From Syntrophorhabdaceae bacterium (GTDB lineage Bacteria; Desulfobacterota; Syntrophorhabdia; Syntrophorhabdales; Syntrophorhabdaceae), in the NCBI GenBank assembly GCA_036504895.1, contig DASXUJ010000111.1, forward strand, positions 1-53,114: a DNA stretch of 53,114 nt, in the 5' to 3' direction. Shown piece after piece: positions 2,495 through 47,748 of the stretch. The position numbers were made by a program, and so were the translations under genes. The notes beneath the pieces are model-generated. The model was not told the origin of the DNA and searched no databases. It was given only the letters and a program-made list of their open reading frames with translations. The first letter of the stretch is position 1. Each line of letters starts with the position of its first letter.

Positions 2495-3706
2495 ATGAAA
2501 GCATGGTCCCGAACTATTCCAGCCGTAATCGCGTGCCTGTTGCTGGCGCCTTTGTGTGCATGGTCAGGTGAAACAGACATCAATAATGTAACCAACACGG
2601 TTCGCGAAGTCGAACAGTACAACTTCTCCATCCATATCCTGGCCATGCTGCTCGTCGGCTTCGGGTTTCTCATGGTCTTTGTCAGGAAATATGGGTATAG
2701 TGCGACTACCGGCACATTCCTCGTGGTGGCCTCGGCCATGCCGGTCTACCTTCTTGTCCGTTCTCTCGGTGTAATCTCCGCCGAAGCCATGCCTGCGACC
2801 AGCATTGCCGTCCTCCTTTTGGCCGAATTTGCTGCCGCGTCCGCCCTCATCGCAATGGGCGCCGTTCTTGGGCGTCTCCGGGTCTATCAGTACGCCCTCG
2901 TCGGCATTTTTGCCGTTTTGGCCTACATGGTCAATGAATGGCTGGTTCTTGACGGAGGGTTAGGGATTACGAAGGGTTTCGTGGACGCCGCGGGCTCCAT
3001 AGTGATTCACGCCTTCGGCGCCTATTTCGGAATCGGGCTGACCGTTGCGCTTACCCGTAAGGCAAGCGTGGGAACGGCCATTGAGAGTGATGAAACATCG
3101 GACAGGTTTTCCATGCTGGGCTCCATGGTATTATGGATCTTCTGGCCAAGCTTCTGCAGCGCCGTGGTTCCCCACGGACAAATGCCGCTCACCGTTATTA
3201 ACACGATCATGTCATTGTGCGGCGCTACCCTGATTACGTACCTCGCGAGTGTCCTCCTACGGAAAGGAAAGGTCTCGATTGCCGACATGGCCAACGCTGC
3301 GCTGGCAGGAGGAGTGGCCATAGGCGCTATGTGCAACCGTGTCTCCCCAGCCGGCGCCTTCGGCATCGGTCTTTTGGCCGGGGCCATTTGCGTGATAGGC
3401 TACGTCGTGATACAGCCGAGGGTGCAATCCCTGTTCAGGATCGTGGATACGTGCGGCGTTCATAATCTGCACGGCATGCCGGGCATCCTTGGAGGCGTCG
3501 TCGCCGTATTCGTAATTCCCGGGGTTGCAACGGCACAGCTTGCCGGGATCGTCTTTACCGTATTATTTGCCCTCATTGCCGGGATAGGCTCGGGTTATCT
3601 TATCAAGGCCACGGGTTCGAAGATCGCCGAATATGAAGATGCCGATGAGTTTGACGGGATGGAGGCGGATGAGGAAGAGGTCAAAAGATTGCATCTTGCT
3701 AAGTAA
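2495..3706 (+). CDS. Rh-type ammonium transporter (Amt/Rh family)
   Basis: Polytopic inner-membrane protein of about 403 residues that conducts NH3/NH4+ (possibly CO2 in Rh relatives). The ATG at 2495 is chosen because a GGAGG sequence precedes it and the product then begins with a signal-like segment (MKAWSRTIPAVIACLLLAPL, cleavage near AWSGE), as in Rh/Amt proteins. The twin histidines are in IVIHAFGAYFG and in DTCGVHNLHGMPG; the latter motif and FWPSFCSAVVP are typical of the Rh branch more than of classical AmtB. The last 30 or so residues are a strongly acidic cytoplasmic tail. No glnK gene is next to it, unlike classical amtB loci. A decayed copy of its 3' end lies at 7629-7741. Confidence 0.88.
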   Translation: MKAWSRTIPAVIACLLLAPLCAWSGETDINNVTNTVREVEQYNFSIHILAMLLVGFGFLMVFVRKYGYSATTGTFLVVASAMPVYLLVRSLGVISAEAMPATSIAVLLLAEFAAASALIAMGAVLGRLRVYQYALVGIFAVLAYMVNEWLVLDGGLGITKGFVDAAGSIVIHAFGAYFGIGLTVALTRKASVGTAIESDETSDRFSMLGSMVLWIFWPSFCSAVVPHGQMPLTVINTIMSLCGATLITYLASVLLRKGKVSIADMANAALAGGVAIGAMCNRVSPAGAFGIGLLAGAICVIGYVVIQPRVQSLFRIVDTCGVHNLHGMPGILGGVVAVFVIPGVATAQLAGIVFTVLFALIAGIGSGYLIKATGSKIAEYEDADEFDGMEADEEEVKRLHLAK

Positions 3707-3728
3707 ACGGGTGCGGCTGCGTTTTTTT
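3705..3728 (+). terminator. Possible intrinsic terminator of the ammonium transporter gene
   Basis: AAACG overlapping the stop codon can pair with CGTTT across a 10-nt loop, followed directly by a run of seven T (3722-3728). The stem is short, so this is a tentative call based mainly on the T run just past the gene. Confidence 0.33.
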
Positions 3729-3896
3729 GAGTGAAGCCCAATGGGACCCGGGAAGGTGCAGGGAGAGTTAGTCATTTAGTAATGCCCATCCTCTTTGTTT
3801 CACCGGTAATTTCTCTTGACTGGCAGCGGGAGAGACCTATATTGTCTTCAGCATGTAATTGACCCACTAAACTTCACGCCGGAACAGGAGGGACGA

Positions 3897-4160
3897 ATGC
3901 ATATTCTGTGGACTATCATTATCGGCTTTCTCGCAGGTGTTGTTGCCAAGTTCCTAATTCCCGGGAAAGATCCGGGTGGATTTATCATCACTACCATCAT
4001 CGGGATTGTCGGCGCAATCCTCGCAACATATTTGGGACAGGCCATGGGGTGGTACGACGCCGGTCAGAAGGCCGGGTTCATCGGCGCCATCATCGGCGCC
4101 ATCATACTTCTCCTTCTGTACAGGTTATTCAGACGTTTTTTCGGGACAAGGCAGGCCTGA
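3897..4160 (+). CDS. GlsB/YeaQ/YmgE-family small membrane protein
   Basis: An 87-residue protein with three hydrophobic segments (about residues 3-20, 26-48 and 60-77). Glycine-rich repeats such as GFLAGVVAKFLIPG and GFIITTIIGIVGAI are typical of transglycosylase-associated GlsB/YeaQ proteins, which are induced by envelope or general stress in many bacteria; the molecular role is not settled. The ATG at 3897 is preceded by CAGGAGGGA, which decides the start over an in-frame codon at 3816. It stands alone between the transporter and the DUF4126 gene. Confidence 0.8.
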   Translation: MHILWTIIIGFLAGVVAKFLIPGKDPGGFIITTIIGIVGAILATYLGQAMGWYDAGQKAGFIGAIIGAIILLLLYRLFRRFFGTRQA

Positions 4161-4275
4161 CCGCATTGGCTGAAGGGGATCGCGTGGGCGGGAAAAGAGC
4201 AGCTCCCGTCAGCCGCCCGGCCCTGGTATGGGAATAATTCCGCATGGGTAACCGCGTACACGCAGAGCGTGAGTG

Positions 4276-5274
4276 ATGGAAACCATCGCTCTCCTCGGTT
4301 CTTTAACAGGTCTCGGTCTGATGGCCGGACTGAGCTTGTACGCGACCATCCTCACCGTGGGCCTGGGCGTTCGCTTCGGCCTTGTCCACCTTGACCCCGG
4401 CCTGCAACATCTCGCGGTGCTTGCCGGCACACCCGTTCTCGTGGCAGCAGGCATCGTATATCTCTTCGAATTCTTTGCCGATAAGATTCCCTGGCTGGAC
4501 AGCATTTGGGATTCCGTTCACACCTTTATCAGGCCCTTTGGGGCCGCCGTGTTGGGGGTCACCGCCATCGGTTCGGTCGATACCGTGACGCAGGTGCTGT
4601 CCGTTATCTTGTGCGGAGGTGCAGCCTTGGCTTCTCACTCGGCAAAAGCGGGAACCCGCATAATGGTCAATCACTCGCCGGAGCCCGTCTCGAACGTGAG
4701 CCTGAGCCTCTTTGAGGATGGGCTGACATTCCTGGGAACATGGTTTTCCCTGAAGCATCCCCAACTAATGCTTATAATCGCAGGGGTTTTTATGGTAATT
4801 ATCCTGGCTATCTCGCCACGTATTTTTCGGCTGCTGAAGGTCGAGCTTCTGGCTTTTCACGCAATGATTGACAAATACCTGTCGGGCTCCGGCCGCCTGC
4901 CGGCCGGGGAACCGATGCCCGACGGGTACGAACAATACCTTCGGAAGCGATTCGATCCGTCGGCATTTCCAAAGGCGGTTAGGTGCGTCGCATCGAGGGG
5001 AGTGGGTGGGTTGCGCCACTCCGTAGGTTATCTCTGCCTTGGCGGGGAAGGGCTATTCTTTCTGACGCGGCGATGGTTTCATTTTTCCCTATGGCAAATG
5101 AAGGGCAATTCCATAACAGACCTCAGGCGCACCAAGGGTCTGCTCCTCGATCTCATTTCTTTTTCGGATGGGGAAGGTCCGAGGAGCTTCTACTTTTTCA
5201 AGAACCGTTCCGACCGGGGCATGCAGGCCCTTGTGATGATGCAGGATCAGTCCCCGACAAAAGACGTTACTTGA
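4276..5274 (+). CDS. DUF4126-domain membrane protein
   Basis: About 332 residues. The first 190 or so form the DUF4126 membrane domain with several helices (GLGLMAGLSLYATILTVGLG and later segments to about residue 180); the rest is a soluble C-terminal part with SVGYLCLGGEGLFFLTRRW. The function of DUF4126 is unknown. A GTG at 4273 is directly ahead of the ATG and could also serve; neither has a strong ribosome binding site. The C-terminal soluble extension is longer than I remember for the plain DUF4126 family. The gene is followed by a hairpin-bearing spacer at 5377-5403. Confidence 0.65.
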   Translation: METIALLGSLTGLGLMAGLSLYATILTVGLGVRFGLVHLDPGLQHLAVLAGTPVLVAAGIVYLFEFFADKIPWLDSIWDSVHTFIRPFGAAVLGVTAIGSVDTVTQVLSVILCGGAALASHSAKAGTRIMVNHSPEPVSNVSLSLFEDGLTFLGTWFSLKHPQLMLIIAGVFMVIILAISPRIFRLLKVELLAFHAMIDKYLSGSGRLPAGEPMPDGYEQYLRKRFDPSAFPKAVRCVASRGVGGLRHSVGYLCLGGEGLFFLTRRWFHFSLWQMKGNSITDLRRTKGLLLDLISFSDGEGPRSFYFFKNRSDRGMQALVMMQDQSPTKDVT

Positions 5275-5376
5275 CTCGCAGTGTTTCACGGGACACCGCT
5301 CTACTACGGGGTATTGGACCTCATGGCGGGGGGAACCGAAGGGGACCACCGGTCGGCTTCGACGACCGCTCTCAAG

Positions 5377-5403
5377 GAATCAGATTGCGGGGCGATCTGA
5401 TTC
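5377..5403. repeat. Perfect 9-bp inverted repeat
   Basis: GAATCAGAT, nine bases of spacer, then ATCTGATTC. It lies between convergent genes (DUF4126 on plus, the exported 98-residue protein on minus). It may fold as a transcript-end hairpin, but no T run follows on either strand, so it could equally be a protein-binding dyad. Confidence 0.5.
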
Positions 5404-5515
5404 AGGGTGTCCGTCAATATGGCTATCTGCGTAAAAAGCTGGTGCCGCCGCAATGCTCATGGCGGCTCCCGCGGGCAACAAGGGCCGCCATGGTTAACGA
5501 AAATAGCTGCTCAGG

Positions 5516-5812
5516 TCACTTCTTTGCCGGAACAGGCGCCGGCCCTGCCTTCTTGCCTGTGTCCTTGGCCTCAATGGTCGCTGCCTTCATGGTATACTCG
5601 ATAGTCACCTTGGATCCGACTTTAAGGTCTCCCGTCACCTTGGTGGCAGCATCTTTTGCAATTTCCCATTTCTCCTTGCCCTTCTGCACGGTAATAGTGT
5701 CATCTTTCATTTCCAGGACCGGTCCCGTAACCTGATAGGTCTTCGGACCTGCGGCAAAGACCAGCGAAGAAAATAGAATTATTGCGCTCACGACGATCAG
5801 AAAACTTTTCAT
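5516..5812 (-). CDS. Small exported beta-rich protein, unknown function
   Basis: 98 residues. The start at 5812 has GGAGGG upstream and gives a clear Sec signal peptide (MKSFLIVVSAIILFSSLVFA, cleavage near AAG). The mature part has short alternating strands (YQVTGPVLEMKDDTITVQKG, TKVTGDLKVGSKVTIEYTM), reminiscent of small OB-like periplasmic domains, and ends in a Lys/Pro/Ala tail. I do not recognise a named family. The next minus-strand gene upstream, 70 bp away, is the double helix-hairpin-helix protein, so they may be co-transcribed. Confidence 0.68.
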   Translation of the reverse strand: MKSFLIVVSAIILFSSLVFAAGPKTYQVTGPVLEMKDDTITVQKGKEKWEIAKDAATKVTGDLKVGSKVTIEYTMKAATIEAKDTGKKAGPAPVPAKK

Positions 5813-46928: not shown

Positions 46929-47037
46929 TATAGCTTCCTGAATCAGACGATTGACAGGCCCGAGTATGGGACATAGGTTCCTGCCAGAAAGTGGAGCGGC
47001 AAGACGGTGTCGCACACGCGAGAAAGGAGGGCATGCC

Positions 47038-47748
47038 ATGGAGGAAAGTATTTTGGTACAGCGAGCGTACACGGCTGTTCTGGACCACTTCATAAAGACC
47101 GGCCGGGCGCCTCATTATACGGAACTTGCAGCCACTCTCGGATTGGGGCCCGAAGAAGCCAGACAGGTGCAACACAAGGCAGCCGATTCGGCAATAGCCT
47201 GCTGGTTTGTGACAGGCACGGATTATGTCGAGTCCTGGGCGCCCTTTTCCAATGTACCGACCCATTATCTGGTGACGATAGAGGGGGATCAGAAGTGGTA
47301 CGGCCAGTGAGGGATAGAATCGCTGGCCGTGCGCTGGCTCTTTCCCGGCAAGGAGATCCGCATCGACGCTCGTTGTCTCGATTGCGGCGAACCCATCCTC
47401 GTTCGTATGCGGGATGAAAAGATACTGGAGATAACCCCCGCGACGACAGTGGGACATATGAATCTCCCTTTTGCGAAGGCTTTGACTGGAGATGTATCAT
47501 GGGGTATGGCCTGAAGCCGCATGAACCTCTTCCGGTCGGAAGAACACGCAAAAAACTGGCCCTCCTATGATCCCATCTCCGCGGAATCGATTATGCCCTT
47601 AGCCGATTGGGCGCAGGTTTTCAGCGGACCTTTGCACAGGAATCGGATGGAGCCAGGCTATCTTTCGCGAATACACGAATACGCACCGAAATTGTTCCAG
47701 TCGTTAAAGGAACTGGGAAAGGAGGGCAGGTTCTGGACCCCTGAGTGA
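47038..47748 (+). CDS. MerB-like (alkylmercury lyase family) protein, probable selenoprotein with two Sec residues
   Basis: 236 residues if the in-frame TGA codons at 47308-47310 (residue 91) and 47512-47514 (residue 159) are read as selenocysteine. AGAAAGGAGG lies seven bases before the ATG. The N-terminal helical domain (LDHFIKTGRAPHYTELAATL) precedes a MerB-type catalytic domain. WYGQ-Sec91-GIESL aligns with YAWCALDTL of plasmid MerB, so Sec91 replaces catalytic Cys96 and Glu replaces Asp99. Sec159 precedes SRMNLFRSEEHAKNW, aligning at the Cys158/Cys159 pair. DARCLDCGEP matches the conserved third cysteine region. All three pieces share one frame and read as one continuous domain, with the natural stop after RFWTPE. 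Known MerB cleaves carbon-mercury bonds; Sec, with its high mercury affinity, would suit that. A recent double-nonsense pseudogene is the alternative, but both stops hitting catalytic cysteine sites argues against it. Confidence 0.82.
47311..47344 (+). promoter_or_regulatory. Possible weak SECIS-like structure after the first TGA
   Basis: GGCC (47325-47328) can pair with GGCT (47336-47339, one G-U) around a seven-base loop that starts with GT and lies 18 nt after the TGA; GAA and TTC outside can extend it. It is much weaker than the structure after the second TGA. Confidence 0.35.
47528..47543 (+). promoter_or_regulatory. bSECIS-like hairpin after the second TGA
   Basis: TCTTCC, loop GGTC, GGAAGA: six perfect pairs. 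The loop begins 19 nt after the TGA at 47512. From memory, the E. coli fdhF SECIS element also has an apical GGUC loop 18 nt after its UGA, recognised by SelB. Loop identity and distance together make this strong support for selenocysteine insertion. Confidence 0.7.

Follow-up and report, generated by a model that had tools for sequence, protein, structure and literature searches.

A MerB-like protein family with predicted selenocysteine at both mercury-binding positions

The cleavage of the carbon-mercury bond by the organomercurial lyase MerB is textbook thiolate chemistry, in which Cys96 and Cys159 bind mercury and Asp99 delivers the proton. A locus in a Syntrophorhabdaceae bacterium (GenBank assembly GCA_036504895.1, contig DASXUJ010000111.1, positions 1 to 53,114 of the forward strand; the window is this whole stretch of 53,114 nucleotides) raises the question of what a MerB-like gene encodes when its frame contains TGA codons at the positions of both mercury-binding cysteines. 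The initial annotation had joined three open reading frames, separated only by TGA, into one MerB-like protein. They do form a single frame of 236 codons on the plus strand (47038-47748) that opens with ATG, closes with a TGA at 47746-47748 and holds two in-frame TGAs inside. The read-through protein of 236 residues matches the Pfam MerB model PF03243 (E 1.6e-20, 73.8 bits, cut-off 27), with a match that spans both TGAs. The features of the locus are the following:

47024-47030, plus strand: Shine-Dalgarno sequence AAGGAGG, 7 nt 5' of the ATG, read directly from the sequence
47038-47748, plus strand: predicted double-selenocysteine MerB-like protein, 236 aa (U91, U159), from homologues, structural model and fold search
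47308-47310, plus strand: first predicted selenocysteine codon TGA, U91, equivalent to MerB Cys96 in the alignment to 3f2g and in the family alignment
47317-47319, plus strand: codon of Glu94, equivalent to MerB Asp99; Glu in 106/106 members
47322-47338, plus strand: SECIS hairpin 1, GCUGGC-CGUGC-GCUGGC, starting 11 nt past the TGA codon
47374-47388, plus strand: CxxCG motif (residues 113-117) with Cys113 and Cys116; both Cys in 102/106 members
47512-47514, plus strand: second predicted selenocysteine codon TGA, U159, equivalent to MerB Cys159 in the alignment to 3f2g and in the family alignment
47528-47543, plus strand: SECIS hairpin 2, UCUUCC-GGUC-GGAAGA, loop GGUC, from codon-constraint analysis

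A scan for promoters and terminators at both ends of the gene yielded nothing convincing, and an Rfam scan of the whole window at gathering thresholds gave 0 matches. Elsewhere in the window, an open reading frame at 48293-49078 matches only the C-terminal part (positions 140-353 of 354) of the Schlafen group 3 helicase domain and is probably a gene remnant.

That the placement of the two TGAs is beyond chance, as proposed initially, is borne out by the homologues. In a family alignment of 106 members (the contig carrying L082 and L004 enters from both collections and is counted twice), codon 91 is TGA in 105 members and Cys in one, codon 159 is TGA in all 104 members that reach it, and a TGA occurs at no other codon of the aligned part (0/106). 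Expressed as residue pairs at sites 91 and 159, 103 members are U/U, two are U/contig end and one, from an Actinomycetota (L091), is C/U; the two sites are thus occupied by selenocysteine (Sec) or Cys throughout. Glu94 is invariant, and the Cys113-xx-Cys116 pair is kept in all but four members. Furthermore, dN lies far below dS before, between and after the TGAs, and purifying selection acts on each of the three segments.

The family is widespread. A search of 99 related genomes recovered six further full-length copies with both TGAs and a seventh that has the first TGA and ends with its contig (41-83% identity overall). When the alignment was used to query 395 genomes of the phylum, many more copies came to light, each full-length one with exactly two TGAs. 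A contig-collection scan found 211 relatives, 80 of which were retrieved and used, all of them records of metagenome-assembled genomes or similar; scanning that collection with a single sequence in which Cys codons were substituted for Sec found no relatives. Going by the names of the records, the carriers are Deltaproteobacteria (Syntrophaceae, Desulfobacterales, Desulfarculaceae and others), Nitrospirae and Chloroflexi (Dehalococcoidia, Anaerolineales), together with Actinomycetota, Acidobacteria, Gammaproteobacteria, Spirochaetes and Poribacteria; some records named 'Deltaproteobacteria bacterium' are classed as Myxococcia, which was taken as a naming artefact. At phylum level, the family is thus found in Desulfobacterota, Chloroflexota, Actinomycetota, Acidobacteriota, Nitrospirota and others. 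Carriage by phages or plasmids was rejected, as viral contigs scanned with two peptide patterns yielded no relative and plasmids gave only distant Cys MerB.

The machinery for Sec insertion is encoded in the window genome, where all four sel genes score over their cut-offs: selA (571 bits), selB (370 bits), selC (tRNA-Sec, 69 bits, gathering 47) and selD, of which there are two copies. One copy contains an in-frame TGA (L030, G000:C108:13608-14522) and probably encodes a Sec-containing SelD. The second selD adjoins a divergent gene for a MerA/lipoamide-dehydrogenase-like flavoprotein (353 bits, under the MerA cut-off; the two lie at 3081-4532 on the minus strand and 4712-5734 on the plus strand of L187). 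Across the phylum, selA is present in 359/395 genomes, including all 24 with double-TGA copies, and two genomes whose MerB relatives lack a TGA (G112, G135) do not have it. Because selA is so common in the phylum, this co-occurrence is consistent with Sec decoding but weak evidence by itself.

More direct evidence comes from the RNA. Bacterial SECIS loops carry a G within their first two positions, and in the fdhF SECIS of E. coli the apical loop reads GGUCU. At site 1, a six-pair hairpin, GCUGGC-GGUCU-GCUGGC, starts eleven nt past the first UGA, with CGUGC as the loop in the clade of the window. At site 2, CUCUUCC-GGUC-GGAAGAG starts twelve nt past the second UGA; the window hairpin has six pairs here because its outermost pair is C-A. 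Constraint on the RNA was separated from constraint on the protein by shuffling synonymous codons within each gene. The full stem is found in 103/105 real genes at site 1 against 14.0 expected in the shuffles, and in 91/104 at site 2 against 8.9 expected. Local folding energies are likewise lower in real than in shuffled genes (-8.0 versus -4.2 kcal/mol at site 1, -9.1 versus -3.6 kcal/mol at site 2). Leu164, Phe165, Arg166 and Ser167 are each encoded by a single codon (CTC, TTC, CGG and TCG) in 83 to 104 sequences. The six codons of lowest entropy in the entire gene fall without exception within the two hairpins or at their margins (mean entropy 0.58 bits, compared to 1.44 bits elsewhere). 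In addition, C-G pairs at site 2 have been exchanged for T-A in a compensatory manner (72 and 16 sequences). A SECIS-type hairpin held by synonymous codon choice therefore follows each TGA. Taken together, the Sec machinery, the TGA or Cys in homologues and the constrained hairpins strongly support the earlier proposal that both UGAs are read as Sec, and Sec is very likely present in the protein itself. The family is real, since the same double swap is conserved in more than 100 bacterial relatives.

The relationship of this family to MerB is evident at the level of both sequence and predicted structure. In the alignment to the solved MerB 3f2g, U91 corresponds to Cys96, as the initial annotation had stated, Glu94 to Asp99, U159 to Cys159 and Ser160 to Cys160. 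The second TGA, placed earlier at a 'Cys158/159 pair', hence falls exactly on Cys159 and not loosely on the pair. An AlphaFold2 model (37 sequences) reached a mean pLDDT of 96.9 and a pTM of 0.91, and Foldseek against the PDB returned eleven significant matches, all MerB (5c17, E 1.4e-9). By VIA-align, the model aligns with Hg-bound MerB2 (5c17) at Z 17.3 over 193 residues (rmsd 3.8) and with MerB (3f0o) at Z 16.1, while the next unrelated chain has only Z 4.4. The family thus shares with MerB/MerB2 (PF03243; 3f0o, 3f2f, 5c17) the whole-length fold, the ligand positions of Cys96 and Cys159 and an acidic residue at position 99. It differs in that Sec occupies the two ligand positions, Glu replaces Asp99 and Ser usually replaces Cys160, so that the canonical Cys96/Asp99/Cys159 triad is absent and replaced by Sec, Glu and Sec. 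The window protein is also only about 20% identical to proven MerB, lacks a mer operon context and scores below the two NCBIfam MerB equivalog models (32.4 versus a cut-off of 193 bits, 30.2 versus 200 bits); three NCBIfam models (SaoL and the two MerB models) match other members of the double-Sec family too.

A MerB relative with Sec has been described in SaoL, a single-Sec 'CU' entry that is called an 'organometallic' lyase of the SAO system and not a mercury lyase (PMC13188914, a 2026 review). The initial annotation had mentioned SaoL as a sign that the family may be known, but the window protein is not SaoL: its score against the SaoL model NF040728 is 47.3 bits versus a cut-off of 140, and SaoL identity was ruled out by score, Sec pattern and tree position. 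Like the window family, SaoL has Sec at the Cys159 position, but in L150 and L151, true SaoL copies from the phylum, the Cys96 position holds Cys and the Sec belongs to a 'CU' motif. SaoL therefore has one Sec only, keeping Cys at the first ligand position and directly before its Sec, whereas the window family has Sec at both and the residue preceding U159 in the window protein is not Cys. Furthermore, the two groups lie in different parts of the tree, and the window family has no conserved neighbours in 90 loci. No SaoL over cut-off was found in the window genome, in which SAO genes were searched with the SaoL model only.

In a maximum-likelihood tree built with the two Sec columns removed, for which the tool warns of long branches, the window family forms one clade (99/98). 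It is sister (100/99) to a MerB-like group with a 'WYGEC' motif (L010, L012, L065-L068, L166) that shares Glu at the Asp99 position but has Cys at the Cys96 position and, except for one Sec (L066), at the Cys159 position. A second double-Sec MerB-like family (L157, L159-L161, L163, L165, L174, L175, L178) was found as well, with two TGAs in 10/10 copies in a search of 297 genomes and the motif YAAUAxD ... FUxxxVFFxSEEHA. It resembles the window family in that both ligand positions carry Sec and a SECIS hairpin follows each UGA, but differs in having Asp at position 99, and its best match to the window-family model is below 40 bits. Since it groups on the opposite side of the tree, with canonical MerB and SaoL (subject to the long-branch warning), the second family is probably independent. 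Three further MerB-like proteins, L154 (identical to L011), L155 and L066, have just one TGA, at the position of Cys159, with close Cys forms in L152 and L153 for L155 and in L068 for L066. Sec has thus found its way into the MerB active site on several occasions, and the double swap at both ligands probably arose twice.

What would such a protein do? We consider it probable, with appreciable room for doubt, that the window gene encodes a MerB-fold selenoprotein with Sec at both mercury-binding positions and Glu94 in place of Asp99, acting as an organomercurial lyase with a bis-selenolate site. Lyase activity is likely in view of the fold and the active-site alignment, and methylmercury is a plausible substrate. 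The sequence evidence strongly supports the decoding of both UGAs as Sec through SelB and the hairpin after each. In the proposed mechanism, U91 and U159 would form a bis-selenolate pocket that takes up the organomercurial, for example methylmercury. Glu94 would protonate the leaving carbon, after which Hg(II) would be held by the two selenolates and then handed to low-molecular-weight thiols, sulfide or selenide. Mercury is bound more tightly by selenolates than by thiolates, and the likely gain would therefore be that sulfide-rich, anoxic cells could capture organomercury present at very low concentration. The gene stands alone, outside any mer operon. No companion genes had been noticed nearby at the outset, and across 90 loci no conserved neighbourhood was found, the commonest neighbour cluster occurring in 8/90 once frames overlapping the gene were excluded.

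The genomic background connects the family with mercury methylation. As the window genome encodes HgcA, with HgcB directly after it and both over cut-off (L186, 2244-3224 and 3235-3546), it is a predicted mercury methylator. Among 395 genomes, hgcA over cut-off is present in 17/24 with the double-Sec gene versus 97/371 without it (Fisher p 1.3e-5), and a further 2/24 have a truncated hgcA. Under stratification by taxonomic family the association persists at reduced strength (CMH p 0.013, odds ratio 5.2), and within one family (f10) hgcA occurs in 3/6 genomes with the gene versus 3/7 without. The association is partly phylogenetic; this single hypothesis was tested on hand-transcribed tables with phylogeny partly controlled, and it is therefore treated as a lead. 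A role beside HgcAB is speculative. The wider proposal, that the family is an obligately double-Sec methylmercury demethylase of anaerobes that works beside HgcAB in mercury-methylating bacteria and is responsible for some of the anaerobic methylmercury breakdown that merB does not explain, is put forward as a tentative one, which we hold to be somewhat doubtful. A 2021 survey of mer genes found 0 HgcAB in genomes encoding MerB without MerA (PMC8261052). Cys-based criteria would exclude the double-Sec family from such surveys.

The lyase reading has to be weighed against the low identity to proven MerB, the change of Asp99 to Glu in all members, the absence of a mer operon and the lack of a MerA over the curated cut-off in the window genome. 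Some of these points fit a protein that binds Hg(II) or methylmercury and keeps it sequestered, or that shields the cell, but leaves the carbon-mercury bond intact: on general chemical grounds a bis-selenolate site would have a very high affinity for Hg, the genome has no such MerA to handle released Hg(II), and the gene is stand-alone with its Asp99 replaced. However, the carboxylate at that position is strictly kept (Glu in 106/106), as expected for a proton donor, and the complete MerB active-site frame is retained, which makes sequestration unlikely. We give the same low standing to a protein that cleaves or otherwise handles some other organometal or organometalloid (for example organotin, organolead, organoarsenic or organoselenium), as proposed for the SAO system. 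The distance from proven MerB and the 'organometallic' designation of the one-Sec relative SaoL (PMC13188914) speak for it, but the enrichment in hgcA-positive genomes points to mercury, and SaoL is not found over cut-off in the window genome.

A selenium redox enzyme or a metal-sensing regulator built on the MerB fold and unrelated to organometals is improbable. Although winged-helix DNA-binding domains show some similarity to the N-terminal part (LexA, Z 4.4), this part aligns with MerB itself in an alignment that covers the full length (residues 1-205 of the model with chain residues 16-209), and the two Sec align with the mercury ligands of MerB and not with a redox CxxC-type motif. Finally, while the frame formally holds two stops, a pseudogene (a dead MerB with two nonsense mutations), sequencing errors or a reassigned genetic code can be dismissed with near certainty, given that more than 100 independent assemblies share the same two TGAs and have none at any further codon, that dN/dS stays low downstream of both, and that hairpins, Sec machinery and a terminal TGA are present.

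The double-Sec MerB-like family is apparently undescribed so far. Two reviews list the one-Sec SaoL and no double-Sec MerB, although Haft and Gwadz 2023 or Haft and Tolstoy 2025 may mention it. The deep-Sep paper makes no mention of MerB, and its authors note that selenoproteins without Cys homologues may escape their method (PMC12013277), a possible reason why the family has been overlooked. Surveys would miss the gene because it is split by gene callers at the two UGAs and because Cys96 and Cys159 are absent, and merB counts in metagenomes may be too low.

The replacement of both mercury-binding thiolates by selenolates, over several phyla and with almost no Cys forms, suggests a purposeful use of the affinity between mercury and selenium. 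In animals, it is to this affinity that mercury toxicity is tied. The double-Sec gene is a candidate demethylase in anaerobes, hgcAB carriers included, and makes anaerobic methylmercury breakdown directly testable.
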